Below are positions 1-28,309 of a DNA stretch of 28,309 nucleotides, in pieces (within the stretch, counting starts at the first letter, position 1; the number at the start of each line of letters is the position of its first letter). Location: IMG/VR virus record IMGVR_UViG_3300045996_000823, positions 1-28,309 of that record; one strand, written 5' to 3'. Under the pieces are notes generated by a model, which saw nothing but the letters and a program-made list of their open reading frames with translations, did not search any database and had not been told where the DNA came from. The stretch comes from a virus. A program made the translations under genes and the position numbers.

Positions 1-275
1 GCGAGGCCGGACAGTTCGACATTGACGCTCCGGATGGAGTCCTGGATGCCGTTGAGTTCCGTGGCCGCGTTGATCGTGTAGATCTTGCGCTCACTGGGAT
101 CAAGCGGCCCGGCCCACGAGACAATGCCGGTGCCGTCCCCGAAATCGGCGGTGCGCCACGCCGGAGCAAGCGCGTGAAAGACGGCTCCTGGGTCCCCCCT
201 GAGCAGGAGCTTGCCCACCGGCTCCCCGGCCTCTTGCAGCAGCAGATAGCTGCCGTCCTGAAGGAGAAGCGCCAT
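1..275 (-). CDS. Partial phage protein, N-terminal 91 residues (unknown function)
   Basis: An open frame starts with ATG at 275 on the minus strand and runs off the left window edge without a stop. The visible protein begins MALLLQDGSYLLLQEAGEP and continues with a region rich in Gly, Asp and aromatic residues; I see no signal peptide or membrane segment. A GGGA ribosome-binding sequence lies a few bases upstream, and the gene starts 10 bases after the stop of the preceding minus-strand gene, so it belongs to the same late transcript. I do not recognise the family. Its place after the tail-fibre and lyase-type genes suggests another virion-surface or receptor-binding component, but that is inference from context only. 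Confidence 0.7.
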   Translation of the reverse strand, partial: MALLLQDGSYLLLQEAGEPVGKLLLRGDPGAVFHALAPAWRTADFGDGTGIVSWAGPLDPSERKIYTINAATELNGIQDSIRSVNVELSGL

Positions 276-285
276 ATTCCCTGCC

Positions 286-1461
286 TCACGTGATGATGAT
301 GTCGAGCGGGGTCGTGGATACGGTGCTTGCCTGGTCTCCCAGCAGGGGGCCGGGAAGCGTGGTGACCGGGGCATGAGGGCTATTCGAGACCAGCGGGGCC
401 GTCGTCGTGATCAGGCTCGCCTCGTTGCCGGTGGCATTGCTCATCGGCCAGTGGTAGAGCGCGGCCCCGGTCGGCACCGTCAGGCCGGTGATCTGGTCTG
501 GTGTCTTGCCCTCGGCCAACTGGTTGATCTGCGGATCGCTCGGTATCCAGTTAGAGGCCCACACCCAGTTGCTGAAACGGCAAGGTGCGTGATTGGTCCT
601 CGAACTGGAGGTCCTTGCCCCAATCTGGAGGAAGCGACAGATGTCTCCGGTCGAGGTGGGCGGGATAACGGTTCCCTGGTAACTGGCCCCTTTCTGAGTT
701 CCGAGCCGAACCAGAACATCCGCGCTGGCGAGGGCTGTGATCCCGATATAGTACCAAGTATCGACCTGGAGCTGCTTGACGAGGTAGTTTTCCCGATAAT
801 TGACGCCGGTATACTCCGCTGTCGAGGCGGATATCTTGTTGTTGTCGGGGTCCCAGAACAGCCGGACCCGAGCCGCCCCGCCCGCTGGAGAGCCAGCGTC
901 GAGACGCCCGAAATCCATCAGGTAGATCGCGGCTGACGGCATGTAGGTGAAGGCCACGAAACCGCCGATATACCAGTTGAAGTTCGAGATCCGCAATCCG
1001 GACGTTTGGGCATCAAGGCTGAAGTACTGGGTCTTGCCGTTGAGCCGTCTGGCGCTCAGCGTGCCGGGTTTGACCTCCTCCAGGATCGGGCTGGAGACGG
1101 TGACGGTGGCGGCTGTGGTCCGCTGGAAGTGTATCCAGGTTGTCGTGCTGATCGCGGTGAATTCAAGCTTGTTGTCTCCGGCGTTGGAGGTGTTGGGACC
1201 CTTGATATCTCCCAATCCTTCCGCGCTGCCGATCATCCTGAACATCACGGTTGAGGTGTCGTTGCTCCAGGACAGCAGGTAGGTCTTGTTGACCTCCGTG
1301 GTCACCGCACGGCGGGCGTAGACCAGACCGGTGCCGTTGGCGACGATGGTGATCTGGCCGGTAACGGCATCGATTGTGACCGTGCCGGGACCGCCCGTAT
1401 TCCAGGTGCCGCCGGCCCGCAGCAGGTTGGTGTAGCTGGTCGGTTCTGTAGGATCTGCCAC
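286..1461 (-). CDS. Two-domain tail appendage protein with LamG/concanavalin-like C-terminal domain
   Basis: This 391-residue protein starts at GTG (1461), with GGGA about 8 bases upstream, 16 bases after the preceding stop. Residues about 10-130 form a beta-rich module ending in TTTWIHFQRTT and VSSPILEE. The same module occurs twice in the gene at 10895-11665, where it ends TTTWLQYQRTS and VSNIFVQE. Residues about 140-360 look like a laminin-G/concanavalin-type sandwich: NGKTQYFSLD, a WYIGG strand, DTWYYIGITAL and FLQIGAR are typical of that fold. No catalytic motif is visible. The likely role is glycan binding on the virion tail, as a receptor-binding or fibre-tip protein. Family assignment is by pattern only; the domain architecture is more secure than the function. 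Confidence 0.75.
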   Translation of the reverse strand: MADPTEPTSYTNLLRAGGTWNTGGPGTVTIDAVTGQITIVANGTGLVYARRAVTTEVNKTYLLSWSNDTSTVMFRMIGSAEGLGDIKGPNTSNAGDNKLEFTAISTTTWIHFQRTTAATVTVSSPILEEVKPGTLSARRLNGKTQYFSLDAQTSGLRISNFNWYIGGFVAFTYMPSAAIYLMDFGRLDAGSPAGGAARVRLFWDPDNNKISASTAEYTGVNYRENYLVKQLQVDTWYYIGITALASADVLVRLGTQKGASYQGTVIPPTSTGDICRFLQIGARTSSSRTNHAPCRFSNWVWASNWIPSDPQINQLAEGKTPDQITGLTVPTGAALYHWPMSNATGNEASLITTTAPLVSNSPHAPVTTLPGPLLGDQASTVSTTPLDIIIT

Positions 1462-1477: not shown

Positions 1478-4474
1478 TCAGGCGAATTCGTCGGAGAAAT
1501 CGCTAGAGAAATCGCTTGTTATCTGCTGGATCGAGAGCGGCACCGTGACCTTGCCCCGCTCGTCCCAGTCATTTGGAGCGGCAGACGTGTTCTTCAGGTT
1601 GAACAGGCTCTGGCGAGCGAGCAGCACTCTCTGGTCGGAGGGCGCGACGTAGTGCTGGTACATCGACAGAGCGGCATAGATCTGGATCATATAGTTGTTG
1701 CCATCGACCGAGACGTGCTCTCCGGTGCTGAGCGGATGCAGGCCATTGACCGCCGTCCGCACGCAGACGCCGACGATATCGACGCCGTTGGTGTTGAAGG
1801 TGACCGGACTGCCGCCCGGAGACAGCGCGATCTTGCAGGTGTTGCCGGAAGACTGGACCGCGTAGTAGGGAATGTTGCGGGTCAGCAGGCCGGGGATCTT
1901 GGTCATGTCGGTGACCGCGTGCGGTTCTCCGACCTCCCGGATGCCGGTGATCGTGATGATCATGCCGTCCATCATGGCGGTTGTGCCCTGCATCGGTCCC
2001 GTGAAGGACAGTGTCTGGTTATCCGCCTTGTAGGTGCATGCGCTGGTATTGGCCTTCCACTGCCCAATGTGCCAGTAGCGCCGATCCTCGATAGTGGCTC
2101 CGCTGCCGCTCGACATGCTGAGGTTGTTGTAGGGCGCGACATTGAAGGGGTCCGGCTTCATCAGGTAGTACTGATCTCCGACATCGTTCTTGTAGCCGCC
2201 CGACGCCACGACCAGGGCGTAGGACCACCACTCGGCGCGCTCCTTAAGCCTGGGGTACTCCGTTATGCCATAGGCGTATGCCAATCCGTGCAGGCCGAAA
2301 GAGTGCATCCAGAACTTGTAGCTCGGCTCATTGTTGGGCCAGAGAAGCTTCAAATCCTGAAAGCGCCTGCCATCGGTGCGGGTCAGTCCGCCGCGCCAAG
2401 CATCCTCTTCCAGCGGAATCTCGTCGTTCATTTCCGCCCAGTGATCGAACATGTCGCGACACATGACCCAGTGCGGATCGCTCGGATTGCCGTATCCCAT
2501 GGCGTAGGCAATCGGCTTGACGCAGTGGGCGACGGCGCGGATCTGTCCCTTGAAGAGGATGCCGCCGAACTCGATTTTGGCCCGCCCGCTGGTGCCGTAG
2601 AAACCGTAGGCGTCGGCATCGAACAGCGCCGGGAGGGTGGCTTCCTGATAGGCCAGATCGAGCCAGTGCTGATCCCCCTCCGAAAGATAGGGCCAGTGGG
2701 ACATCTGCGGAAAATGGGCGGCATCGAGTTCGTTAATCTCCGGGAGCGTGCCGCCGTTCGGCTTTCGGATCGCGGCCCACCCGGTCCAGGTGCTGGCCGG
2801 TCTGCGCGTTGGCGCGCCGTAGATGCTGGTGCCAAGAGCGCTGGCATTGGTTGATTTGGTCGGCGGCAGGTAGCAGATGATCTTTCTGGTATCCCGGTGC
2901 AGACCGACGCCGGTCATCGCCCCCATCCCAAGACCGCAGACGCGGGCCAGACGCTGGTGCTCGGCAAGCTGCGCGGCTGTCCCCCTGGCATGGGCCGCGA
3001 TGCACCACGCCATGAACTTGCTGGTCGTCCACCACAGTGTCGCGTGATCCGCCACGTCTGACTGTTTCGGCCGCAGCGGGCCGCGCCGTGCGGGCCGGTA
3101 GATGTCACTCGCCGCCGTCATCGGGAAGCTGCTGTTGGACGTGTCGTAGGGCGGGATCAGCTTGGACTGGACGCCGTAGCCGATGTTGTGCCGGTAGATC
3201 AGTTTCGGCGGCACGACGTAGCTGTTGCTCGCGACATCGAACCAGTCCATCTTGCCGTCCGTTCCGGCGCTGACGACGAAGCCGCCCTTCCACGTGTTGA
3301 CAGCCCCCCAGTCAGCCGTGCCGATGGCAGCGCCCCGGATCACCGTATTGTTGACGGACAGATTGAGATCGACCCGCAACCCCTGTTCATCCTCGGGAAC
3401 GTCGGTGGACCAGCCGTAGACGCTTCGGTAAAAGAACTGTATCCGCTTGGGATTGTTGGCGGTGCCGCCCCAGGCGCGGGCATAGAGCAGGCAGCCGAGA
3501 TTTTCAGTCGGAGAGCGGGTGCCTGAAGAGCCGGTCGCCATATCCGAGGCTCGCCATTCCGTGCAGACCGGCCCGCCAACGATGCGCTCTATCCAGGTCG
3601 AGTTGCCGGGGCCGAGCATGTCGCTGGAACGGAAGTGCTTCGGGCCGCGCTCTGCGGTCAAAACATCCGTCAGAGAACGCCCCTTGAAACTGGTGAAGCT
3701 GTAGTTGAGACTGACCTTGGAAGTAATCGCGGTCGTCTGGGTGTGGAGCGGCGTGTCGTTGGCTCCCCAACTTCCGTCAACCGCCTCCCAGACGATGTCC
3801 TTGGAAGATCCCGCCACGATGGACGGCATCAGAAAGCGAACCTGTGCCAGCTTGAGGGAGCCGTCCATCCAGGTCGTTCGATTGGAAAGCTGCTGCGGCA
3901 CGCGCACGCCATCGACCGAGAGGACGGCGATCCGACCGGGAGGAACATCTCCAGGAGCGAACCACTGGGCCGTGCTGATTTCCTGGTCAGCCCATGACGA
4001 GACGGTGTCGTAGTTCTCGATCTTGGCGCTGAACAGGGTTTCTCCTTCCTGGGTCTCGACAGACTCGATAGTCAGAGAGACCTGGAAGGTTTCTGGAAAT
4101 CCGCTAACCTGGATGGTGACGGCGTAGATCCCCGCCGTCAGGGTGGCGTTGCCGACCACGAGTTTGTAGCCCTGCCCCCAGTTTCCACTCAGAGCAACCT
4201 TGCCCCCGGCATCATCGGTCAGGGTGGCGCTGTAGGATACTCCGGCGAACTCGTTGGTGAATTCGTGGGTAAAGGGGGTGTTGGCGGAGACCGGAAAGCC
4301 GGTGAAGGACAGCGCCGCGATCTGGGTTCCGGGAAGAACGGAACTCTTCACCGTGGAGGCGGTCGGCGTCATGTTCCGGACAGTGGGCGGCGGCGTGTAG
4401 ACGCCGACCCGAACCGGCTTGCCGTTTGGGCTGCGGAAGTATTTTCCGCCCGGTGTGCGAAGATAACCGCCCAT
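1478..4474 (-). CDS. Large tail protein, candidate polysaccharide lyase (PcRGLX/YetA-like fold)
   Basis: This is a 998-residue protein. I chose ATG at 4474 because it follows the upstream stop (4478-4476) by one base and has GAGG six bases before it; an in-frame ATG at 4486 is possible. The N terminus has two short repeats (LRTPGGK, FRSPNGK). An Ig-like segment covers about residues 35-155. Around 160-240, FAPGDVPPGRIAVLSVDG, WMDGSLKLAQVRF and similar stretches resemble the beta domain of RIFT-related PcRGLX/YetA-like lyases. A central region (about 480-800), rich in Trp, Tyr and His with helical spacing, would fit an alpha/alpha-toroid catalytic part. It ends in SDFSSDFSDEFA, a motif shared with two other proteins here. 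Lyase activity is inference; depolymerising host capsule or exopolysaccharide is the likeliest role. Confidence 0.7.
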   Translation of the reverse strand: MGGYLRTPGGKYFRSPNGKPVRVGVYTPPPTVRNMTPTASTVKSSVLPGTQIAALSFTGFPVSANTPFTHEFTNEFAGVSYSATLTDDAGGKVALSGNWGQGYKLVVGNATLTAGIYAVTIQVSGFPETFQVSLTIESVETQEGETLFSAKIENYDTVSSWADQEISTAQWFAPGDVPPGRIAVLSVDGVRVPQQLSNRTTWMDGSLKLAQVRFLMPSIVAGSSKDIVWEAVDGSWGANDTPLHTQTTAITSKVSLNYSFTSFKGRSLTDVLTAERGPKHFRSSDMLGPGNSTWIERIVGGPVCTEWRASDMATGSSGTRSPTENLGCLLYARAWGGTANNPKRIQFFYRSVYGWSTDVPEDEQGLRVDLNLSVNNTVIRGAAIGTADWGAVNTWKGGFVVSAGTDGKMDWFDVASNSYVVPPKLIYRHNIGYGVQSKLIPPYDTSNSSFPMTAASDIYRPARRGPLRPKQSDVADHATLWWTTSKFMAWCIAAHARGTAAQLAEHQRLARVCGLGMGAMTGVGLHRDTRKIICYLPPTKSTNASALGTSIYGAPTRRPASTWTGWAAIRKPNGGTLPEINELDAAHFPQMSHWPYLSEGDQHWLDLAYQEATLPALFDADAYGFYGTSGRAKIEFGGILFKGQIRAVAHCVKPIAYAMGYGNPSDPHWVMCRDMFDHWAEMNDEIPLEEDAWRGGLTRTDGRRFQDLKLLWPNNEPSYKFWMHSFGLHGLAYAYGITEYPRLKERAEWWSYALVVASGGYKNDVGDQYYLMKPDPFNVAPYNNLSMSSGSGATIEDRRYWHIGQWKANTSACTYKADNQTLSFTGPMQGTTAMMDGMIITITGIREVGEPHAVTDMTKIPGLLTRNIPYYAVQSSGNTCKIALSPGGSPVTFNTNGVDIVGVCVRTAVNGLHPLSTGEHVSVDGNNYMIQIYAALSMYQHYVAPSDQRVLLARQSLFNLKNTSAAPNDWDERGKVTVPLSIQQITSDFSSDFSDEFA

Positions 4475-4475
4475 G

Positions 4476-7400
4476 TCAGACCTCATGCCCGACGAGGGTT
4501 ACCTGGAGGCCCTTGGCCCCGGCCCCCGCTATATCGATGTCAAAGTCCACCAGGGCGTTGACCGAAATCGATCCGGCTGACGCGGAGGTGAAGGAATTGG
4601 TGCTGGAGAACTGGGAGTTGGCGGCAACCGCGACCGGTGCCGTCAGGATCGAGACGCCGTTGACATTGACGTCCACGGTGGTTGCCGTTGTTCCGGCCGC
4701 GACCACGTAGAAGCGGATCTCGGTCAACTTCATATTGAACGGCATCATGATCCGGCGCGCGGGCAGCGCCACGGTGACCTGGGTAAACTCCGCGACGCAC
4801 GGGATCGTGATCGTTCTGGTCAGCTTGACCGGCACCGCGTTGCCACCGGCATCGAACCCAAGAACCTGCCCCTGTGTGCCGCTGATCTCGTTGGCATTGG
4901 CGAAGGAATTGAAAGCTTCCTTGGTCCGCGCCGGGTTCATTGAGGTGGTCGTGCTGGTGCCGGTGACCGCCTCTGAGGTGGTGGCGAAGACGACACTGGT
5001 CCCGCCGCCGCCACCGCCCGTGGACAGGGACCCCGGAACCATCGTGAAGTTGGTGCCGTCGAACACCAGCAGGACAGACTGGTTAGCCGCCAGTCCGATG
5101 ATCGATGCACCGTTGTGATTGGCAACCGTCAGCAGGGCGGAGCCGGTCGAGGCCGGAGTGCGGGTTATCCGGAAGGTTGCCCCCCGAGCCGTGCGCGGGG
5201 CCGTGTAGGCACCACTGGCGTAAGACTTGTCGATGTAGCGGGACAGCGAGATCGTCCGCTCCGCCGTCAGCGGTGTGGCGCACTGAACGTGCCTGCCGTG
5301 GATCGCGGGATAGACGGTCAGGGATTCGTCCCCGATGGTGTGCAGCCCGCCCGTGACCTCACCGATGACGCTGTTGTAGGACAGCAGCGGCCCGATCAGA
5401 ATATCACTGGTCGGATCGACGGTGGCGATGGACAGATCATCAAGCAGGTGCGGACTGGCGGAATCGACATCGAGCCGGATCTGCTGGAAGGTGCCGGTGA
5501 CGTTCTTCGCCGCAGAACTGCTGGTGTGACCGATCAGGGAAAAGCGAATGCCGCCGTCCTTGACAGTACCGCTCAGCGTCATATTGGCGATCAGAAAAGC
5601 ACAGCCCTGTTCCCCGGCGAAAATCACCGCATCCGACATCGCCTGGGATGCGGTCGTGAGCTGGGTTCCGGACACGTGAAGGCCGGTCATCTGCACCATC
5701 GATCCGAAGCCGCCACTGACGATGGTGCCGTAGCCGACTGTGGCGCGCGGGGTAATGCGATTGATCACGCCACCGGTAACGGTTGCCGCGCGCACCCCGG
5801 AGAAGTGCATGGGGCGGGTGGCGGTCAGCCACTCGCAGATCAGGTTGGTGAAAGTCACCTGATCCGCCTGACCGATGTAGACACCGCCCGTCACGGTCTG
5901 GGTCGTGGTGCCGCCCGTGACCCGCACATTGATGAAGTTGTTGCCGTTTCCGTTCTTGTGAATGAGACCCCAGGACTGGCCGGTGGACATGCCGATCCGG
6001 ACATTCGTGAAGGTGTTGGAAAACGATCCGGCATTACCGCTGAGGCCGAGGTGGACCCAGGCGTTGAAGGTATCGATATCACTGAACCGGCAATTCGACA
6101 CACCGTTGAGGCGCAGCGCCGCCAGATAGGTCTCTCCAGCGACCGGGTCCGTTCCACTCGACTGATTGGACTGATAAGCGAGACTGATGCCGCTCATCGT
6201 GATCTGATTGGCGTTGGTGATCGAGACGATGGAAACGCTGGACTGGAACTGGCGGAGGACGCACCAGTCACCCTCGATCCGCATCATCGAGGCGTTGGAG
6301 ATCGTCAGCGGGCCGTAGATCTCCCACGTGCCGCCGCCCATATCGACGCGCCCCTTGACAACGGCAGCCTGGGTCCAGCACGTGTTGATCGAGACGGCGT
6401 TGCTTTCCCGCTGCGCCTGGGTCAGTCCGGTTCCCCGGATCGCGCCGTAGTTCTCCGGCCTGAAGGCGTTATCGCTGCCGCTCCCGGAGGTGGACACGGA
6501 GACCGTGCCATCCGGCGCTATCTCGACCCCCGGCCCCTGTTTGACGCCTCCCAGCGTGTTGACGCCTGCGGGGGGCAGCACGAAGGGTGTCGGGTTGGTG
6601 TTGTTAAGAGTATCCCCGGAGAGGGTGAAACCGGAACCGACCCGGATGCCGCCGCGCGTGTCAGCGGTCGCCGGGGGCAGCACGTAGGATGTCCCGGTCG
6701 GGGCGACGGACAGAATGCCGCTGATCTCGTCGTAGGTGAACCCGCTGCCGATCCGGATGCCGCCGAGTTTGGAGGCGGTCGCGGTTGGCAAGCTGTAGGA
6801 CGAGGACGACAGCAGGGCCAGCTTGACCTTGCGCAGCAGGCCGGACGAGGCGTCGTGGGCCATCACGAAGTCGGCGGTGACGTCCGGCGCGGTATCCTCG
6901 CTGAGGCCCGCGATATCGACCGAGAGGCTGCGGTTGGCCGTAAGGTTGCCACCACCCGTCATGCCCGCGCCCGCGCTGATGGAAATCGTGCTCGACGCCA
7001 GACCGGACGCCTGCCAGCGAACCGTCTTGGCTGCCGGGTCCGTCAGGATCTGAATGTTGGAGCCGGACACGAAGTTGATGGTCTCCCCCGGCGTTGCGGC
7101 AGAGATCGTGGTTTGTCCGGGAGAGGCGAAGGACGAGAAGTCGGGTTGACTGCTGTCCCCGCCGCCGCCAGTCGAGACGATCCGGGACATGCGGACTTTG
7201 CGCGGCGCTGCGGCGGAAACATCGTGGCTGAGCACGAAATCGTTGGTGAGATCCGGAGCCAGATCTTCGGTCAGGCCATCGACGTCCAGTTCGAGGGTCC
7301 GGTCTGCACTCAGGGCACCGCCGCCCTTGATCCCGTTCAGTGTGTTGATGAGGCGGCTGGTCGGCGCGCGGGACGCCAGAGCCACGGCCAGCTTCATCCG

Positions 7401-7518: not shown

Positions 7519-10401
7519 TCAGCCGTTGGGCGTGAAGGTGGGACCGATAACCAGGACCGGGGGGCCACCGCTCGCGGTGGCGGTATTGCCGTTGCCAGAC
7601 AGGTCTGTCAGGGTCGTGGCGGAGCTGGTGAACTTGTGATACCACTTCGGTGTCAGGCCGAGGCTGGTCTTCATGTCCAGCCCTCTGGCGATGTCCTGCA
7701 TCTGGGCCTGGGTCAGCCTGCCGTCCATTTGGAAGGCCATGTGCATCTTGCCGCCGAAGTAGCGGGTATCGGGAAGATCGTGCCGGGTACCGATGGTGAC
7801 GGTGGCGTTCGGCGACGTGATCACGGAGAGGGCGTTGGGCAGGGTGGCTGTATGGAACAGAACCCGAACGCCGTTGACCGGGGTGTAGTAGATCCTGAGA
7901 ACATCGGCCGCGCTGTCGTGCTCTATGGTCCAGAGATACCAGTTGCCGTCGATCCTCGCCGCCAGAGAGGGCGTGAAGAACTCGTCGTCCTGGGCGGCAG
8001 CGCCATCGTCCAGGGAGAACGACATCATGTTGGCGGCAGCCGCGTAGCCCGCTTCACCGATGAAGAGGTTGACGCATCCCGCCCCGAAGAAATTACCGGT
8101 ACTGTAGATGTACTGGGCCACGGTTCCGGCATTGTCGTCCAAGGCGATCATGAACCCGAGGGTCCAGTCACCAGCGGGCAAGGTGTGGCTGGCGGTTTTC
8201 GCCATCGTGTATTTCAGACTGGTCTCATCGAACTTAACAGCGCTGGTCTGCACGGAGAACTGCGGCCCGCTGGTCAGGCTGGTTCCACCAGTGATGGTCG
8301 CCTCTGCATTGGCGGAGGTGCCGCTGTTCACGATGGGGGAGGTCAGCGTGTTGAATTTTGTGTAAAGCTGGGGCGACTTGCCGAGATCTGAGATCAGATC
8401 GTCGCCGCGCGCCAGCGCCACCATCTCCGCCTCGGTCAGCAGGCCGTTCATCCGGAAGACACTGTGAACCGCGCCATCCAGCCAGCGCAGGCTTGTTGAA
8501 GAGGGCGGAACGCGCGTCCCGACAGCGGGCGGCGTGGTTGGCTGGATCGAATTGATGCCGGTCAGCGTCTGGGCGGTCACGGTGGTTCTGTTCGACCCCG
8601 GCTTCAGGCTGTAGATCGTCAGGATCTCCGTCGCCTTGGCGCGTTGCACGATGATCAGGTTCCAGTGGTTCTCCAGATTGGCCGGGTTCGATGCTCCCTG
8701 GATGACCTGGACGGCACCCTCGCTGCGCAGCGCCACCTCGATGCCGCCCGGTCTCGGGTTAGTGGCGGACTCGGTGGCTTCATACATGAGAAGGTTGAAG
8801 GACTGAACCGCCTGATTGGGACCGGCTGAGATCAGGTACTGGGACGCTGTCCCTGCCGGATTGTCGATCCGAAACCAGCCGCCGACCGTCCAGTCGGCAT
8901 CGGGGAAGTACCAGCCGTCCGTGATCTTGTAGCGCGCGTGGCCGGTGGTGCCATCGAGCTTGAGTGCCGAATTGAGGATGGCCCCGGCCTCGGCCGGACT
9001 GCTGACCGGGGTGATCAGCGGCTGGAGCGCGTTGCCGGTTGTTCTCCCGAGAGACACCGTGTTGTCGTAGACCGGCGAGGCGGCGTCGAACCGCCCGTAC
9101 TGGTGGTAGACATCGACCGGCGTGGCGGGGTCCGCGCCCAGCGCGATAACGATGGCGGAGGGGTTCAGCGTGATGCTGGAAATCGCCAGGGCGGAGGCGT
9201 CACTGTGCGGCGTTTCCCGTGGAAGCACCTGAAAGCCGGTCGCCACGGTGCCGCTGTTGATCTTGAGGGCGGTGCCGGAACGGTGCTGGACCGTCAGGGT
9301 GACCGTGGCTCCGCTTCGTGAGGCCCCGGTAATGACCGGCCCGAGCGCGTTGACGGTCTCGATGCCCATGGCGTGAAGCAGGGCGTGAGCGTAGGACTCC
9401 GCGATCAGTTCCGATCCGGAGGCGGTCTGGTTGACGTCGTCGGCCAGCGGCACGTCCGGCACCCAGCCGAGATTGATCGTGGTGGGATTTTCCGTTAGGT
9501 ACTCGTAGTGGGCACGGCGGATTTCCTGGACGGATAAATCGCTCTCGGCGGCGGGGGTGCGCTGCATCAGGGGAAATAGACCGAACCGCGAGACCGTCGC
9601 CGCCGCTTGCAGGCCACTTCTCAGAGTGGAGAGGCGGGCCTTGTAGTCGGCGCGGGTGATGTTCCCGATGCCGGTGCCGCCCTGGTGCCACAGGATGCCC
9701 GAGACGCCCCCCACGGCGGTCAGCCGGGACACCGCGTTGGTGTAGGCGCTGTCAGCCACTTCCCAGTCCGTGATGGCGGTGCCATCGACACTGGCTTGAA
9801 TACACGCTTGGGGGGTATTGGTCGCGGCTGTCATCAGATTGAGGAACTTGATGACGCCGTTGCCACCCGTTCCGGCGATCTGTCCCGGAAGCGTCCAGGA
9901 GGTGCCTCCCGTGAAGATGACGGTCCTGTCGCTTGGCGTGGGAGGGCTGCTGACCAGCGTGGACATGCGGGACTGCTGGGACTCTCCGGCAAACACCCAA
10001 ATATCACCGACACCGATGGTGTTGATGCTGGTGAAGACGGCGGCGGGGGCATCCGCGAAGCGGTACTGGATCTTGTACCAGCCGCCCTGCGGCACGCTCA
10101 GCGTGCCGTTCCAGGTGTCGCTCTCCCCGGCCCCAAAGGCGGAGGAGAAAGCGGTACTGAACTGACTGACGGAGGGATCTGCAACCGTGAGCCACCCGAC
10201 CACTTCCGCAGAAGTCACCGCATTGATGATGCGGGCGGAGATGGCGCTCGGTGTTCCAGTGTAGGTTCCGGAAACGGGAACAGTAGCGGTACCGTTGATG
10301 CGCTGGTAGACGCGCCGGGAGGGGAGTTCCGTAGCGCTGATGCGAATAGCAGCACTGCTCGATCTGCGTCGAGCGGCGGCAGTCACACTGACTTGCGTCA
10401 T
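7519..10401 (-). CDS. SASA-like esterase-fold tail protein with two LamG-like domains
   Basis: This is a 960-residue protein whose ATG overlaps the upstream stop (ATGA at 10401-10398), implying coupled translation. Residues about 30-130 form a beta domain containing QFSTAFSSAF. Residues about 130-350 resemble sialate O-acetylesterase/SGNH proteins: GDIWVFAGESQQS (nucleophile Ser141 in GES), GILWHQGGTG (His239-Gln-Gly-Gly) and a C-terminal block LADDVNQTASGSELI. In related proteins that last block usually reads D-x-V-H-x-T, so the general-base His appears replaced by Asn324. Two concanavalin-like modules follow, at about 470-650 (LDGTTGHARYK, DWTVGGWFRID) and 700-900 (DWTLGFMIALDD, DGNWYLWTIEHD). 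The likely role is receptor glycan binding, possibly with lost or altered deacetylase activity. The domain calls are pattern-based. Confidence 0.78.
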   Translation of the reverse strand: MTQVSVTAAARRRSSSAAIRISATELPSRRVYQRINGTATVPVSGTYTGTPSAISARIINAVTSAEVVGWLTVADPSVSQFSTAFSSAFGAGESDTWNGTLSVPQGGWYKIQYRFADAPAAVFTSINTIGVGDIWVFAGESQQSRMSTLVSSPPTPSDRTVIFTGGTSWTLPGQIAGTGGNGVIKFLNLMTAATNTPQACIQASVDGTAITDWEVADSAYTNAVSRLTAVGGVSGILWHQGGTGIGNITRADYKARLSTLRSGLQAAATVSRFGLFPLMQRTPAAESDLSVQEIRRAHYEYLTENPTTINLGWVPDVPLADDVNQTASGSELIAESYAHALLHAMGIETVNALGPVITGASRSGATVTLTVQHRSGTALKINSGTVATGFQVLPRETPHSDASALAISSITLNPSAIVIALGADPATPVDVYHQYGRFDAASPVYDNTVSLGRTTGNALQPLITPVSSPAEAGAILNSALKLDGTTGHARYKITDGWYFPDADWTVGGWFRIDNPAGTASQYLISAGPNQAVQSFNLLMYEATESATNPRPGGIEVALRSEGAVQVIQGASNPANLENHWNLIIVQRAKATEILTIYSLKPGSNRTTVTAQTLTGINSIQPTTPPAVGTRVPPSSTSLRWLDGAVHSVFRMNGLLTEAEMVALARGDDLISDLGKSPQLYTKFNTLTSPIVNSGTSANAEATITGGTSLTSGPQFSVQTSAVKFDETSLKYTMAKTASHTLPAGDWTLGFMIALDDNAGTVAQYIYSTGNFFGAGCVNLFIGEAGYAAAANMMSFSLDDGAAAQDDEFFTPSLAARIDGNWYLWTIEHDSAADVLRIYYTPVNGVRVLFHTATLPNALSVITSPNATVTIGTRHDLPDTRYFGGKMHMAFQMDGRLTQAQMQDIARGLDMKTSLGLTPKWYHKFTSSATTLTDLSGNGNTATASGGPPVLVIGPTFTPNG

Positions 10402-19846: not shown

Positions 19847-21091
19847 ATGCAGCGCACGATTTCCATCCATCTCAAGAGCACGCCGGAACAGGACGCCATC
19901 CTGTTTCGGACGTTGGCTGGATCTCGTGACTGCTTCAACGCGGTTGCGCAGTTCGGCTGGGAAGCTAGAGAGAAAAACGGCGTTACGCTGCACAAGGCGA
20001 CCTATTATGAGCTTCGCATGCTCCATCCAACCATGCCGTCCCAACTTGTCATCTCCTCCCGCATAAAGGCGACAGAAGCGCTGAAGTCTGCTTTTGCGCT
20101 GGAGAAGAAGGGGGGCAAGGCAAGCGCCCCGCAAACTGTTCGTGGCTCCATCCGGTATGATGCTCGATCCTATCGCATGGAGGTGCAGGAAGGTCTGGTC
20201 GGGCTGACTACCGTGGAAGGACGGATCAAGTTTCCCTTCCACATTCATAACCACGCCAAACGCTGGCTCGACCGGGCAACTGGTTTCGACAGCGCGGATC
20301 TGAGTCACCGGCCTTCCGGCTGGTGGCTCAACGTCGTTGTGACTATAGATCCTCCGGAGATTGCGTCCTCTGGTCAGGTGGTTGGTGTTGATCTTGGCAT
20401 AAACAGACCCGCCGTTCTGTCCAATGGGATCTTCCTTGGCAAGCGTCGGTGGAAAGAAATCGAAAAGCGGTACTTCCGGCTTCGTCGCAAACTCCAGTCC
20501 AAAGGCAGCCAGTCGGCCAAGCGTCATCTGAAAAAGATACGCCGCAAACAGGCACGGTTTCGGACGGATTGCGACCACGTTCTGAGCAAACAGATCGTTC
20601 AGAGCGTGGAACCGGGCAGCATCATCGTCTTCGAAAACCTCACAGATATCCGTAGCCGCACCAAACAGCGGGGACGAAAACAGAGGCGCAGGCATCACTC
20701 CTGGAGCTATCGGCAAGTTAGAACCTTTGCCACCTACAAGGCAGAAGAGGTTGGAACTACCCTTGTCGGAATTGATCCTCGTCATACGTCCCAACGCTGC
20801 TCCAGGTGCGGTTTCGTGCATAAGAGAAACAGACCAACTCAGTCTGTCTTCCTATGCACGTCTTGTGGTTATGAGGTTAACGCCGACTTCAATGCTGCTC
20901 TAAACATCAAGTGGAAGTACCTTGCCGAAGCTGGCATGTCTGGCATCGGCGGGCACCCAGGCAACGTGCCTATCGTGAGGGAGGCAGAACACTCGTGTGC
21001 TTCCTCTGCTCACAAGCTGCTTACTTCATCAGGCAGCCGTTGCCAGAACCCTTTCTTGCGCGTCACGAAAAACACGGCTGAATTGCCGTAG
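19847..21091 (+). CDS. tnpB: TnpB RNA-guided DNA endonuclease
   Basis: This is a 414-residue protein starting at ATG 19847. The split RuvC nuclease is complete: Asp182 in GVDLGINRP, Glu263 in VFENLTDIR, and Asp347 in NADFNAALNI. A zinc finger sits between the last two (Cys318/321 in CSRCG, Cys337/340 in CTSCG). The N-terminal part (residues about 1-175) has the OrfB/WED-REC composition with QDAILFRTLAGSRDCFN. TnpB proteins, ancestors of Cas12, use an RNA made from the element's right end to cut DNA next to a target-adjacent motif, which helps the element persist. With the predicted right end at 21013, about 25 C-terminal residues (390-414) come from flanking phage DNA, so the native stop seems lost. 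All catalytic residues remain, so activity is plausible. Confidence 0.92.
   Translation: MQRTISIHLKSTPEQDAILFRTLAGSRDCFNAVAQFGWEAREKNGVTLHKATYYELRMLHPTMPSQLVISSRIKATEALKSAFALEKKGGKASAPQTVRGSIRYDARSYRMEVQEGLVGLTTVEGRIKFPFHIHNHAKRWLDRATGFDSADLSHRPSGWWLNVVVTIDPPEIASSGQVVGVDLGINRPAVLSNGIFLGKRRWKEIEKRYFRLRRKLQSKGSQSAKRHLKKIRRKQARFRTDCDHVLSKQIVQSVEPGSIIVFENLTDIRSRTKQRGRKQRRRHHSWSYRQVRTFATYKAEEVGTTLVGIDPRHTSQRCSRCGFVHKRNRPTQSVFLCTSCGYEVNADFNAALNIKWKYLAEAGMSGIGGHPGNVPIVREAEHSCASSAHKLLTSSGSRCQNPFLRVTKNTAELP
20900..21013 (+). ncRNA. Predicted omega RNA scaffold region of TnpB
   Basis: In this family the guide RNA overlaps the 3' part of tnpB and ends at the element's right end. Here the last 65 bases hold AGGCA/TGCCT (20959-20971) and a longer imperfect hairpin at 20981-21006 (GAGG...CCTC, ACAC/GTGT). 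The guide would be the following phage bases from 21014. The 5' boundary is a guess. Confidence 0.45.
20981..21006 (+). repeat. Right-end hairpin of the tnpB element
   Basis: GAGG pairs with CCTC and ACAC with GTGT, with AG/CT between and two mismatches, around a two-base loop. Its position a few bases before the inferred right end fits an IS605-family right-end hairpin. Confidence 0.5.
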
Positions 21092-21849
21092 GATGACGGC
21101 AATCTTGTGACCCGAAGCAGCGGGTTCTGTGTCAGGAACTCATCGAACGCCTTGCTCTCACCCATGTTCTTTTCCGCCAGATTGCCGGAATTCCAGTCAT
21201 CGAAGACGATGATCGAGTGCTCCGCCAGCAGCGGCCCGACAAAGTCCAGCGCCTCCTTGGAGGCGGAGTAGATGTCGCAATCGATCAGCACGATCCCGAC
21301 CTTGCGGATGTTGTACTTCTCGACCGTGTGCTGGGTGCATGTATCCTTGAACCAGCCCTGGATCAGGAAGGTCGTGTTCCAGTCAATCCCGCGCCGGGTC
21401 AGCAGCTTGTAGGTGAAGGGCAGGGAACTGTCGAACTGTCCCTCGCTGAAGAAGCCGCCGTCCTGATCGTCGGCCTCGGGAGGCAGTCCCTGGAAGCTGT
21501 CGAACCCGAACTTGCGCACCCCCGTGGTGCCGGTGGCCTTCAGGACGTCGTGCATGCACGCCATGCTGGAGCCGTGGCAGACACCGAACTCCAGGTAATC
21601 CCCGATGTCGTCTCCAACGCGGTCTCTCAGGGTCATGACGGCGCTGGTGTAGGTTTCCTTCAAGGCTTCCTCGGGAACCAGACCCTGTCCCCGGAGCGCG
21701 CGGCGCTGGGTCTTCAGCCGAAACATCAGGCGGGACAGCTTGCGCAGCGGCCGGAATAGGCCGATTGCGACAAGCGTGCGGTACAGCGGGGTATCGAGAT
21801 GTTCCGGAAGGGGTCGTCTGGCTTGGCGGTGAGAGACGCTTGCTGACAT
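21010..21849 (-). CDS. TylF-like SAM-dependent methyltransferase
   Basis: This is a 279-residue protein; ATG 21849 has GGAG about 9 bases upstream. SAM-binding motif I is seen as YLEFGVCHGSS (residues 85-95), followed by FGFDSFQGLP (114-123), the acidic metal-binding type segment VLIDCDIYSAS (187-197) and IVFDDWNSGN (214-223). These match the TylF/macrocin O-methyltransferase and related sugar methyltransferase group. Residues 1-75 form a basic, helical extension. It probably methylates a hydroxyl of a glycan or small molecule, but its substrate in a virion-gene cluster is unknown. The stop codon lies in the predicted right end of the tnpB element: the original protein would end SSF rather than SSL. 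Confidence 0.85.
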   Translation of the reverse strand: MSASVSHRQARRPLPEHLDTPLYRTLVAIGLFRPLRKLSRLMFRLKTQRRALRGQGLVPEEALKETYTSAVMTLRDRVGDDIGDYLEFGVCHGSSMACMHDVLKATGTTGVRKFGFDSFQGLPPEADDQDGGFFSEGQFDSSLPFTYKLLTRRGIDWNTTFLIQGWFKDTCTQHTVEKYNIRKVGIVLIDCDIYSASKEALDFVGPLLAEHSIIVFDDWNSGNLAEKNMGESKAFDEFLTQNPLLRVTRLPSSYGNSAVFFVTRKKGFWQRLPDEVSSL

Positions 21850-25036: not shown

Positions 25037-27952
25037 CTAACGGCCGATAAGAGCGCCGACCTTAAGTTGCCTTGATCCCGTCATACAAACATAGCGTGTG
25101 TCATCGGCACAATTGTGAACAATCAACCCGCCGTTGACGGCGAAGGCATGGGTATGTTCGACCTCAAGATTGAAGACGTCGTGCTGACCGGCATCCTCGA
25201 TGGAGGTGACTTCTGCGGTGCTTTCGGCGGAGCGTGGTGTTGTTGACGGAGCGCAGACAATGGTCTTCCCCATGGTGTGCTGCGCCTCAATCCATCCGTC
25301 CGTGGTCAGAATCCGATGGTCTGGCGTACAGGTAACAGAACGCATATCCTTGGTCTTGATCGTAATAGTATCCGCGTTTTCCCGTGTCAGACGGCATCCC
25401 CAGAAAATCATGTACTGCCCGTCAGCCTGACGCGCTTCCCCGACCTTGCCGACAAGATCCCGGATTGGGATATTGCCATCTCGGGTTTCTACCAGCGTAT
25501 CTCCGTGAAGACAGTGGTCTTCCTGAGTTGTGTCAACGTCATCGAAATCCGTATCTGATCTCTGCATGACCGGCACGGTGCGCAGCCAGTGATGACAGGT
25601 CTCGAACACCCACAGCCCCGGCTTCTCCGGACGATCCGCCCGCGCGTTCTCCAGCATGTCGCGCACCTTCTGCCAACCGCCGATGCGGTTGTTGTCGGCC
25701 GGAGACATGATGAGATTGTGACCGGCGTCTGCGGCCCCCTTCCTCATCTCGTCGTAGATGCTTTCCCGGCCGAGCTTGGAGTAGATCGACGGGTCAGCGA
25801 CGCAGCCGCTGAAGCGGTAGCCGAGGGAGCGCTGCGCTATGCCTTCCCCTAGCGCCAAGTTGGTCAGGCGCAGCCCCTCGTTGGGCACGATGTCTCCAGT
25901 CTTGGTCTTGGCGCAGGTGTACCACTCCTTGATCCGGATCAGGGAGCCACGGGGAAAGGTGAAGCCGTCCAGGTCGGGAACCGGGTTGCCGTCAGACACC
26001 GCCCATATGCCGAGACTGGCGGGAGATGCCGACCCCCAGTCGAAGGAGCGCCGGTAGCTCCAGGTCGAGGGAATGTGGAAGGGGGTGAGGAAGTGAATGT
26101 CCGGGACGATCAGGTCGTCAAAGAAGCCGCCCGCGACAATATCCCAGTCGCCTTTCAGCCAGGCATTGACCAGAGCCGCAGACCCGGTGCCGCGCAGTCG
26201 GGCGGCATAAGTCGGGTCGTTCTTCATCATCGCCGTGTTGTCTTCAAGACGGCTGGGGATGTAGATCCGGTAGGACCCGGTTTCCTCATCCCGGATCGGC
26301 GTCCAGCCCTGCGGTGCCGGTGAGATGTAGCGTTGTTTGACCCAGGAATTGCCACTGACCCAGATGAAGCCGTTCTGCCGGATCAGGAAACTATGGGTCT
26401 TGGGTACGCCGATGCAGTAAACATCGCCGTCGAAGTCGAGCATCTTGACGGCGTCCGCCGTGATGTGAAGCTCCGGCCGTCCGATATCATCGAGCGCAAC
26501 CGCCTGACCTTCCCTGAATACGGTACGGGGAATGGTGAAGCCCGATCCCAACTGGTCGAAAGGTTTGAAATCGATCTTCGACTTCGCCGGATACTGGACG
26601 GTGCCGATCTTGTGGTTGGGCGTGCAGACCATGGTGATGCCGTTGCGAGAGATCGTCGCCATCAGGCCGGTGTAGCGGGACTTGTGGACCTGGGAGACCT
26701 TGGCCTCGATCATCTCCCCCTTGGGCGTCACGGTCATCACCGGATCACCGAGGATGAAGCTAGAGATATCCTTCCAGCCGGTCGGCGTCAGCACCTCTCC
26801 GTAGGGAACACAGTGACCGGAGCCGCCGGGGTTGCCGGTCATGATCAGTTCGACCGGCACACCCTTGGCGGAGCGCAGTGTACCCCGCATGCGGTCAATG
26901 GCGTCCGGGGTACTCCAATTGGTTAGCTCTTCGAAGCACAACCATGAATAATTATGACCCTGATATTCTTCAGTCGCTGATACATCCCACAAATGCCTTA
27001 GCTTAAGCAATGCACCATTTGGGAATACCCAATTCGCGTCTCCCTTGTGATATGTGGCTCCGGTTCGGGGAAACAGAGCGGAACATCTGGCCTGGACTTC
27101 TTCAAGCTGCTTGAAACGGCGGCGGAAGAAAACTCCCTTGGCATCGGGGCCGTAGCGGTGAGCGTGCTGGAGCCATTTTCCGATAGCGCCGTCCGTGTTG
27201 TGTGTGATTATGTCGTTGTTGGTGACGAACAGTCCGTCAGCACTGTCAACTTTGATGCACTGGGTATAGGCCAGACCATCGTAAAGGATGGACTTGATGG
27301 CAACCCAGGTATCCAGGTTCTCTACGGGCAAGGCCACCTCAAGGCGGCTTTCCATCAGGCAGCGGATATAATCGGTGGTGACCAGCATCTCATCCTGGTT
27401 GACCCTGATCCGCCAGAGGTGACCGCGAGAAGCCCGTACGGTTCGTCCATCGACAAGAGTAATTTGGAAGACGTCTTCGGAACCCTGCGGATAGACACCG
27501 ATGACATTGACGACAGAACCTCCAGGGCCGTTGATCTCGTCTCCGACCTTGACCTCCCCCATAGCTCTGTATCCGCCAGGGGTAGAGATCACCTCCGTTA
27601 TGGGTAACGCTTTCCCACCACCTCTCGCTCCACCAAAAAAGATTTCTGGGAACGGGCAGGACAGGAGCGCGAATTGGGGGCCGGGGGTGCCGTCCTCTTT
27701 GTACTGCGGAGACCAGATCGACTCGTAGTTCTTCGGGCGGGCAGGTTCCGTCTGCTTGGGCTTGGGCGGTCTACCCGGTGGCCTGCCGGTGTTGCGCTTA
27801 TGGCTGTTCTTCCGGGCATACTCCTTCAAATACGCCTTGCGCTTGAGGTAGCGGCGCTGCTCTTTGGTCAATTCTGGAGCGGGAGCGTTCAGAGGGTCGA
27901 AACCGGCAGGCTCGTCCGGATCTGACTCTGGTTTTCTTTCAGCGTCTGACAT
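25037..27952 (-). CDS. terL: Terminase large subunit precursor with three mini-inteins
   Basis: The 971-residue precursor starts at ATG 27952, which shares a base with the upstream stop (TGATG); a TTG one codon earlier is less likely. Removing three inteins (residues 115-252, 381-535, 814-947) leaves 544 residues, normal for TerL. The motor ATPase has Walker A GARGGGK|T (Lys114 joined to Thr253), Walker B-type WLCFEEL (Glu341/342) and coupling motif TGNPGG. The RNase H-like nuclease has SFDWG (Asp638), VADPS (Asp720) and DFDDVDTTQEDH|CADDT. The N terminus is very basic with an AT-hook-like GRPPGRPPKPK. It would translocate DNA into the procapsid through the portal and cut concatemers. Activity needs three splicing events, each next to an active-site motif. 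Confidence 0.95.
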   Translation of the reverse strand: MSDAERKPESDPDEPAGFDPLNAPAPELTKEQRRYLKRKAYLKEYARKNSHKRNTGRPPGRPPKPKQTEPARPKNYESIWSPQYKEDGTPGPQFALLSCPFPEIFFGGARGGGKALPITEVISTPGGYRAMGEVKVGDEINGPGGSVVNVIGVYPQGSEDVFQITLVDGRTVRASRGHLWRIRVNQDEMLVTTDYIRCLMESRLEVALPVENLDTWVAIKSILYDGLAYTQCIKVDSADGLFVTNNDIITHNTDGAIGKWLQHAHRYGPDAKGVFFRRRFKQLEEVQARCSALFPRTGATYHKGDANWVFPNGALLKLRHLWDVSATEEYQGHNYSWLCFEELTNWSTPDAIDRMRGTLRSAKGVPVELIMTGNPGGSGHCVPYGEVLTPTGWKDISSFILGDPVMTVTPKGEMIEAKVSQVHKSRYTGLMATISRNGITMVCTPNHKIGTVQYPAKSKIDFKPFDQLGSGFTIPRTVFREGQAVALDDIGRPELHITADAVKMLDFDGDVYCIGVPKTHSFLIRQNGFIWVSGNSWVKQRYISPAPQGWTPIRDEETGSYRIYIPSRLEDNTAMMKNDPTYAARLRGTGSAALVNAWLKGDWDIVAGGFFDDLIVPDIHFLTPFHIPSTWSYRRSFDWGSASPASLGIWAVSDGNPVPDLDGFTFPRGSLIRIKEWYTCAKTKTGDIVPNEGLRLTNLALGEGIAQRSLGYRFSGCVADPSIYSKLGRESIYDEMRKGAADAGHNLIMSPADNNRIGGWQKVRDMLENARADRPEKPGLWVFETCHHWLRTVPVMQRSDTDFDDVDTTQEDHCLHGDTLVETRDGNIPIRDLVGKVGEARQADGQYMIFWGCRLTRENADTITIKTKDMRSVTCTPDHRILTTDGWIEAQHTMGKTIVCAPSTTPRSAESTAEVTSIEDAGQHDVFNLEVEHTHAFAVNGGLIVHNCADDTRYVCMTGSRQLKVGALIGR
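25112..25513 (-). other. Intein 3 of TerL (134-residue mini-intein, nuclease site)
   Basis: The element starts CLHGDTLVET (Cys1, block A), has block B SVTCTPDHRILT with the T-x-x-H motif, block F VFNLEVEHTHAF, and ends GGLIVHN followed by Cys+1. All standard splice residues are present, so it should splice as a normal class 1 intein. There is no space for a homing endonuclease. Joined exteins read QEDH|CADDTRY, near the third nuclease acidic cluster. Confidence 0.93.
26348..26812 (-). other. Intein 2 of TerL (155-residue mini-intein, coupling motif)
   Basis: It begins CVPYGEVLTP, has block B MVCTPNHKIG (T-x-x-H), block F DVYCIGVPKTHSFLI, and ends FIWVSGN with Ser+1. Splicing gives NPGGSGH|SWVKQRY, which matches uninterrupted terminases. 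The penultimate residue is Gly instead of His, so Asn cyclisation may depend on other residues. No endonuclease domain is present. Confidence 0.92.
27197..27610 (-). other. Intein 1 of TerL (138-residue class 3 mini-intein in Walker A)
   Basis: It begins with Ala (ALPITEVISTPGG) rather than Cys or Ser, ends NNDIITHN and is followed by Thr+1. The class 3 hallmark triad is visible: Trp in block B (SRGHLWRI), Cys at block F position 4 (YTQCIKVDS) and Thr+1. Such inteins start splicing from the block F Cys. It splits Lys and Thr of the P-loop. No endonuclease domain is present. Confidence 0.92.
27752..27799 (-). other. AT-hook-like segment in the TerL N terminus
   Basis: Residues about 52-67 of TerL contain two GRPP units flanked by Lys and Arg (GRPPGRPPKPK), resembling AT-hook minor-groove binders, after a basic stretch KRKAYLKEYARKNSHKR. 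This may give the motor DNA affinity independent of a small terminase. Confidence 0.45.
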
Positions 27953-28309
27953 CAATAATATCCGAGAAAGGGAATGATGCGCCCCTGAAGGGTCAGCATC
28001 GGCTGGAGCAGCGCCACGACCTCGCCCTCCGCCTGGACGGAGATCAGCGAGAAATCGTGTAATGCCAGCCTGTCTGCGTCGGCCTCGCTGGAAACCCTAG
28101 CGACGCGCAGTCTGGCTCCGTTGGGGAAGTGCCAGATGCCGCCTTTGCGAACCGCTCCGGCCTGGGGCAGATAGTATTCGCACGCCATGTGCATGTTGGA
28201 GAAACTGACCGGCGTGCTCGCTGCCAGCAGGATATGGGCGGACGGCAGGGTGTTGGCGTGGTCAATGATGGTGTCGAAGGCGGTGATGCAGCGGCCCCAC
28301 GGGGTATCG
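27952..28309 (-). CDS. Partial protein upstream of TerL, terminase-ATPase-like pattern
   Basis: The frame is open to the right window edge, giving the last 118 residues of a longer protein; it ends LGYY with the stop overlapping the terL ATG. It contains HILLAASTPVSFSN, EYYLPQAGAVRKGGIWHFPN, GARLRVARVSSEADADRLAL and HDFSLISVQAEGEVVALLQP. These can be lined up, in order and with similar spacing, with a stretch of the TerL ATPase in the next gene (VFFRRR..., ALFPRTGATYHKG..., FPNGALLKLRHLW..., YSWLCFEELTNW). The Walker B acids are not obvious (SVQAEGE). It could be a degenerate terminase-type ATPase, a terminase partner, or unrelated. The small terminase, normally at this place, has not been seen. 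Confidence 0.6.
   Translation of the reverse strand, partial: DTPWGRCITAFDTIIDHANTLPSAHILLAASTPVSFSNMHMACEYYLPQAGAVRKGGIWHFPNGARLRVARVSSEADADRLALHDFSLISVQAEGEVVALLQPMLTLQGRIIPFLGYY

Follow-up and report, generated by a model that had tools for sequence, protein, structure and literature searches.

A probable class 3 mini-intein at the Walker A Lys-Thr junction of a phage large terminase containing three inteins

The stretch of DNA analyzed here, referred to as the window, is the whole 28,309-base virus record IMGVR_UViG_3300045996_000823, and carries a phage head and tail module on its minus strand. Positions 25037–27955 (minus strand) form a 972-residue open reading frame (ORF), with the start being either a TTG at 27955 or an ATG at 27952, that encodes the precursor of the large terminase (TerL) and is interrupted by three inteins. 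The protein matches PHROG 979, terminase large subunit (E 5.6e-23), and 768 phage records match TerL, the best of them carrying the label terminase large subunit. Intein 1, the main subject of this analysis, occupies 27197–27610 (minus strand), and its 138-residue translation, ALPITEV...NDIITHN, contains no stop codon and no endonuclease domain. It splits FFGGARGGGK/TDGAIGKW (with the slash, here and below, marking the junction) between the Lys and Thr residues of the Walker A motif, of which the N-terminal part, GGARGGGK, lies at 27611–27634 and the Thr, the first residue of the C-extein (Thr+1), at 27194–27196 (both minus strand).

The boundaries of this insertion are defined by relatives, designated below by L numbers, in which the site is empty. 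In L003 (88% identical in the best segment), the Walker A region reads FFGGARGGGKTDGAIGKW, uninterrupted, and comparison of its empty-site DNA, GGCGGAAAA directly followed by ACAGACGGC, with the window junctions confirmed that intein 1 is inserted at K/T between invariant TerL residues. No copy of intein 1 was found anywhere in the 143-kb L003 record. Furthermore, the motif GG[AS]R[GA][GS]GK is followed by Thr without interruption in 75 of 76 further relatives (L006–L081), the remaining one (L034) starting downstream of the motif.

Further along the same polypeptide, intein 2 (26348–26812, minus strand; 155 residues, from Cys1 to SGN, then a +1 Ser) follows TGNPGGSGH, resembling the ATPase coupling motif, and intein 3 (25112–25513, minus strand; 134 residues, from Cys1 to VHN, then a +1 Cys) lies in EDH/CADDTRY, resembling a nuclease-domain motif. 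A fourth site, EEYQGHNY/SWLCFEE (26945–26950, minus strand), just before Walker B, is empty in the window and occupied in L002 and L004. With intein 2 in TGNPGG.GH, intein 3 in EDH..D..RY, and the fourth site preceding Walker B, all four sites, judged by motif resemblance, appear to lie in or next to catalytic motifs. Inteins 2 and 3 begin with Cys, have Ile at block position B:12 and SGN or VHN at G:5–G:7, and lack both the Trp and the THN found in intein 1; they are thus assigned as class 1 mini-inteins with a predicted nucleophilic Cys1 and no Trp-Cys-Thr (WCT) triplet. Intein 3 is recognized by Pfam Intein_splicing (E 5e-10) and, within the whole TerL protein, by TIGR01445 (E 1.1e-13) and TIGR01443 (E 4e-11), and intein 2 matches Intein_splicing below the Pfam cut-off (E 3.1e-5). 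In addition to Cys1, intein 2 and its orthologues contain a Cys at F:4, as well as a penultimate Gly (SGN), and either Cys may initiate splicing.

Class 3 inteins are recognized by a signature triplet consisting of Trp at B:12, Cys at F:4, and Thr at G:5 (PMC5050341; PMC7891396). Intein 1 contains all three, namely Trp66 (27413–27415), Cys118 (27257–27259; the putative first nucleophile), and Thr136 (27203–27205), all on the minus strand and placed by alignment and, for Thr136, also by the cited definitions. Its first residue, Ala1, is not Cys, Ser, or Thr; it has a His at B:10 (His64, 27419–27421, minus strand), a penultimate His137, and a terminal Asn138, and is followed by Thr+1, one of the Cys, Ser, or Thr residues found at the +1 position. 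Among 14 aligned inteins, A1, G13, G55, H64, W66, C118, I119, T136, H137, and N138 are invariant. A profile built from these 14 matched the solved class 3 inteins of M. chimaera (Mch) DnaB (6rix, E 5.5e-25) and M. smegmatis (Msm) DnaB (6bs8, E 9e-25) over their full length. Ordinary class 1 inteins scored far more weakly, the exception being class 1 gp41-1, known for its resemblance to class 3. An AlphaFold model of intein 1 with its flanks (mean predicted local distance difference test score, pLDDT, 75; predicted template modeling score, pTM, 0.70) retrieved the class 3 Mch and Msm DnaB inteins at ranks 1–5 in Foldseek (6riy, 9.3e-9; 6rix; 6bs8), above class 1 inteins. The gp41-1 structure 6riz was not counted as class 3, as its WCT triplet was engineered (C1A, F65W, D107C).

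The same assignment was obtained from a tree of 41 inteins, built from the aligned N- and C-terminal splicing regions after removal of the four trait columns. All 27 class 3 rows fall on one side of a branch (support 95/67), and intein 1 and its L002 orthologue, which group together (100/100), lie inside a 19-row class 3 set (96/91), with inteins 2 and 3 falling in two separate class 1 clades. Alternatively, intein 1 could derive from a class 1 intein by secondary loss of Cys1, with Thr+1 now attacking directly in a class 2-like splicing route. The non-nucleophilic Ala1 is compatible with such an origin, as is the fact that the class 1 intein gp41-1 also has SxxH and THN and scores well. However, intein 1 has Trp66, Cys118, and Thr136, none of which varies between it and class 3 inteins, the tree places intein 1 in class 3 without the help of the trait columns, and grouping it with class 1 inteins is rejected by the approximately unbiased (AU) test (p = 0.025). 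Moreover, grafting WCT onto gp41-1 gave no productive splicing (PMC7664689), so that a working set is unlikely to have arisen by drift. A class 1 origin is thus scarcely credible. Several points do weigh against the class 3 assignment: the branch uniting the class 3 rows is incompletely supported (Shimodaira-Hasegawa-like approximate likelihood ratio test, SH-aLRT, 67), the end branches of the tree are long, and intein 1 falls below the cut-off in the Pfam and NCBIfam models, as is possible for a diverged class 3 element. On balance, we assign intein 1 with high confidence to the class 3 mini-inteins, inserted at the classic P-loop site of a phage TerL and most likely working like other class 3 inteins.

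A first-pass annotation of this DNA had placed a class 3 intein between the Walker A Lys and Thr, with the Walker A Thr as its +1 residue, alongside two class 1-like inteins; the exact junctions, the empty site in L003, the full triplet, the best structural matches, and the tree and AU test bear this out, and two splicing chemistries are indeed predicted to occur in one polypeptide. It had, however, named Thr+1 as the third diagnostic residue. The diagnostic Thr is Thr136 at G:5, and Thr+1 is G:8, which is not diagnostic; since both residues are Thr, the class call is unaffected.

Based on the experimentally studied class 3 inteins (PMC5222942; PMC6195587), the following splicing mechanism can be proposed by analogy for each step. 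The TerL precursor would be unable to bind or hydrolyze ATP, because intein 1 splits the Walker A loop. The folded Hint domain would place the Lys-Ala1 bond beside Cys118, of which the attack on this bond would yield a thioester-branched intermediate. The acyl group would then be transferred to the hydroxyl group of Thr+1, the putative second acyl acceptor; cyclization of Asn138, aided by His137, Thr136, and His64, would release the intein, and an O-N shift would leave an intact GGARGGGKT. Intein 1 has no homing endonuclease left, this having been lost, and probably persists today through inheritance along with its gene or through movement by recombination. It might instead be proposed that intein 1 is a dead remnant that no longer splices, with the gene being a pseudogene or the phage using another terminase; no endonuclease domain remains in intein 1, and three inteins in one gene are a possible burden. 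Yet the TerL frame is open over 972 codons, omega is 0.15–0.28 for the inteins and 0.01–0.12 for the exteins, and the two orthologous copies of intein 1, with 25% of their residues differing, have kept all catalytic residues. Between the window and L002, omega of intein 1 is 0.17, similar to that of inteins 2 and 3, indicating that the element is under purifying selection. Loss of splicing is therefore very improbable, and an actively splicing class 3 intein is preferred.

Comparison of the relatives also bears on the history of the insertions. Sites 1, 2, and 3 are occupied in the window, sites 1, 4, 2, and 3 in L002, and sites 2 and 3 in L003; in L004 and L005, site 2 is occupied, site 3 is empty, and site 1 is not covered, with L004 also containing an intein at site 4. 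Site 2 (TGNPGG.GH) is empty in 63 of the 76 further relatives, and site 3 in 74 of the 76 and in L004 and L005. The L002 gene (4001–8086, plus strand) is an orthologous terminase with four inteins, located in the Walker A motif, before Walker B, in the coupling motif, and in the nuclease motif. The differing occupancy indicates that the inteins turn over independently. Because the three window inteins belong to unrelated clades and their sites are independently occupied in relatives, their separate acquisition, also put forward in the first-pass annotation, is supported as an inference, with the tree alone giving no dates. For intein 1 itself, synonymous divergence (dS) between the window and L002 is 1.12 and matches the value for the flanking extein (1.10). 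Common descent would predict such agreement, which favors one older acquisition followed by loss from L003 over two gains. The C-terminal extein of the window is 97.5% identical to that of L003 (empty site) versus 92.8% to that of L002 (occupied site), as might be seen if the window and L002 had gained intein 1 separately. Nevertheless, given the matching dS values and recombination with an empty allele as a simple route to loss, two gains are rather unlikely. This question concerns the history of the element, not its mechanism.

Longer inteins in the relatives showed an additional feature, namely an HNH endonuclease gene hidden in another reading frame. The fourth intein of L002 (5018–6178, plus strand; 387 residues) contains an antisense HNH gene (5139–6137, minus strand) matching PHROG HNH (E 1.9e-15) and Pfam HNH_3 (E 3.7e-7), and the corresponding intein of L004 (1–696, also found in L102), cut by the contig end, contains one at 2–667 (minus strand). 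A scan with this HNH found the same layout in four further divergent terminases, that is, L103 (intein at 3328–4347), L104 (3358–4377), L105/L106 (3061–4095), and L107, and a second scan added L123/L124 (2888–4216), with the inteins for which coordinates are given being on the minus strand. Pfam recognizes the L105 sense product well as an intein (E 2.1e-15), and a strong Shine-Dalgarno ribosome-binding site (AAGGAG) precedes the antisense HNH ATG in L105 and L107. The sense inteins of L002, L103, L104, and L123 are weakly or not recognized by family models, so that their identification is based on position, Cys1, block F, and the junction residues. In the L003 homologue of intein 3 (6026–7039, plus strand), the HNH gene (6234–6941, plus strand; PHROG E 1.5e-45) is on the same strand as the intein but in a different frame, and both frames are open.

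When the HNH genes were re-coded with random synonymous codons (20,000 trials each), the intein frame stayed open in a fraction of 0 for L002, L105, and L123, 0.00005 for L107, 0.00065 for L103, and 0.0027 for L104; for the L003 gene, the corresponding fraction was 0.0001. An open intein frame opposite the HNH gene is thus very unlikely by chance, and the relative frame of the two is identical in all six cases (L002, L103, L104, L105, L107, and L123). Between L002 and L004, 93 changes fall at third positions of HNH codons versus 53 and 51 elsewhere, indicating that HNH is the constrained product, with the sense linker constrained mostly by the need to remain open. We consider it likely that these inteins represent an architecture for which we found no description, in which HNH, rather than being fused to the intein, has its own gene overlapping the linker, either on the opposite strand (L002, L004, L103, L104, L105, L107, and L123) or in another frame (intein 3 of L003), so that one DNA encodes an endonuclease as well as a linker free of stops. 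Under this reading, intein 3 of the window would represent a mini version of the L003 type after loss of its hidden endonuclease. No description of an antisense endonuclease inside an intein was found in open-access full texts, subscription literature lying outside the search. A 2025 study (PMC11855218) reported HNH insertions that are out of frame on the same strand and lack splicing domains; the ShiLan-type insertion in a phage methylase described there is similar in that its HNH gene lies over an insertion that is open and in frame. In contrast to ShiLan, which is on the same strand and without splicing domains, the elements of the relatives described here are inteins and carry HNH mostly on the opposite strand. 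If confirmed, antisense endonuclease genes would explain the mobility of some oddly long inteins without a recognizable endonuclease domain, and would constitute a striking case of overlapping coding, of larger interest than intein 1 itself. The window inteins 1–3 are too short for a hidden HNH gene. A long antisense ORF over intein 1 (27047–27607, plus strand) was not counted as a gene; it extends beyond the intein into the extein, and no family match for it came up, no search having been aimed at it individually.

Elsewhere in the window, a TnpB-type gene (19847–21091, plus strand; OrfB_IS605, Cas12f1-like TNB domain) is inserted opposite to the phage gene direction and overlaps the terminal part of a gene for a TylF-like methyltransferase (21010–21849, minus strand). 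A 960-residue probable tail protein containing a SASA sialic acid acetylesterase domain is encoded at 7519–10401 (minus strand).

Class 3 inteins at the same type of junction were found in various phage ATPases. Intein 1 alone as a query of viral contigs gave no matches, and the diverse intein alignment was too variable for scanning the collection; a DNA pattern of Walker A plus Ala was used instead. Class 3 inteins at the identical GGARGGGK/A junction, before Thr or Ser, were thereby found in seven other diverse terminases from uncultivated phages (L110–L114, L116, and L119). They are 29–45% identical to intein 1 with its flanks and, unlike it, are 268–368 residues long, most with an endonuclease-sized insert. 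One of these terminases, L114 (1721–2779, minus strand, and downstream), is distant and shares the pairing seen in the window, with a class 3 intein at Walker A and a class 1 intein at GTGH/C...SGN/SWV, the latter being the second site, as for intein 2. Other class 3 inteins related to intein 1 occupy GK/T or GK/S in phage Snf2/DarB-like helicases, DnaB-like helicases, an SbcC-like ATPase, a T4-like gp17 (QLGK/T), a Kostyavirus TerL (NGK/T), and a Methanosarcina virus terminase (RSGK/T). Those in Snf2/DarB-, DnaB-, and T4 gp17-like proteins (L083, L084, L086, L092, L096, L098, and L100) share A1, WCT, and THN at GK/T with intein 1, in different host ATPases and at ~25–44% tblastn identity over the matched part. 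In an unannotated phage from human feces (L082, 2501–2923), a class 3 mini-intein of 141 residues is located at SGK/S of an SbcC/RecN-like ATPase. Terminase inteins of the large Caulobacter/Brevundimonas phages CcrRogue (L093) and Kabachok (L095), at Walker A K/S, start with Pro and have Cys at F:4, no Trp, and no G:5 Thr; they match neither the class 1 nor the textbook class 3 pattern, and the tree groups them with class 1.

Intein 1 is therefore not new in kind, with class 3 inteins at P-loop K/T or K/S being the rule among the phage relatives sampled, and adds a mini-intein case to their concentration at the Lys-Thr/Ser junction of phage ATPases. As the Mg-binding residue of the host protein would also be the splicing nucleophile, such a site cannot easily mutate to escape. 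The TerL family, including members with an empty Walker A site, three inteins, and four inteins, provides a natural comparison of independent intein turnover in one motor. The novelty implied in the first-pass annotation was overstated, given two precedents that make intein 1 a further case of a known arrangement. Mycobacteriophage TerL inteins at the TerL1-a site split the same Lys/Thr pair (PMC5050341), and the class 3 signature is present in L089, a Kostyavirus example, and L090; unlike intein 1, TerL1-a inteins are ~330–340 residues long (endonuclease-sized) and belong to other terminase families, with low identity. In M. smegmatis DnaB, a class 3 mini-intein, DnaBi1, is located in the P-loop and followed by a +1 Ser that in the mature protein coordinates Mg2+, and DnaB also contains a class 1 intein, DnaBi2 (PMC6195587). 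DnaBi1 (PDB 6bs8; 139 residues, with A1 and Trp67/Cys118/Thr137) closely parallels intein 1, both in having the Mg-coordinating position of an ATPase as the +1 residue and in sharing its polypeptide with a class 1 intein. The two differ in that DnaB is a helicase with two inteins and a +1 Ser, whereas the window encodes a terminase with three inteins and a +1 Thr, and in block B, which is DxxH in DnaBi1 and SxxH in intein 1. In addition, the DnaBi1 redox partner Cys48 has no counterpart in intein 1, and a redox switch of the Cys48-Cys118 type was provisionally rejected, since C84, the one further Cys of intein 1, is Ser in L002.

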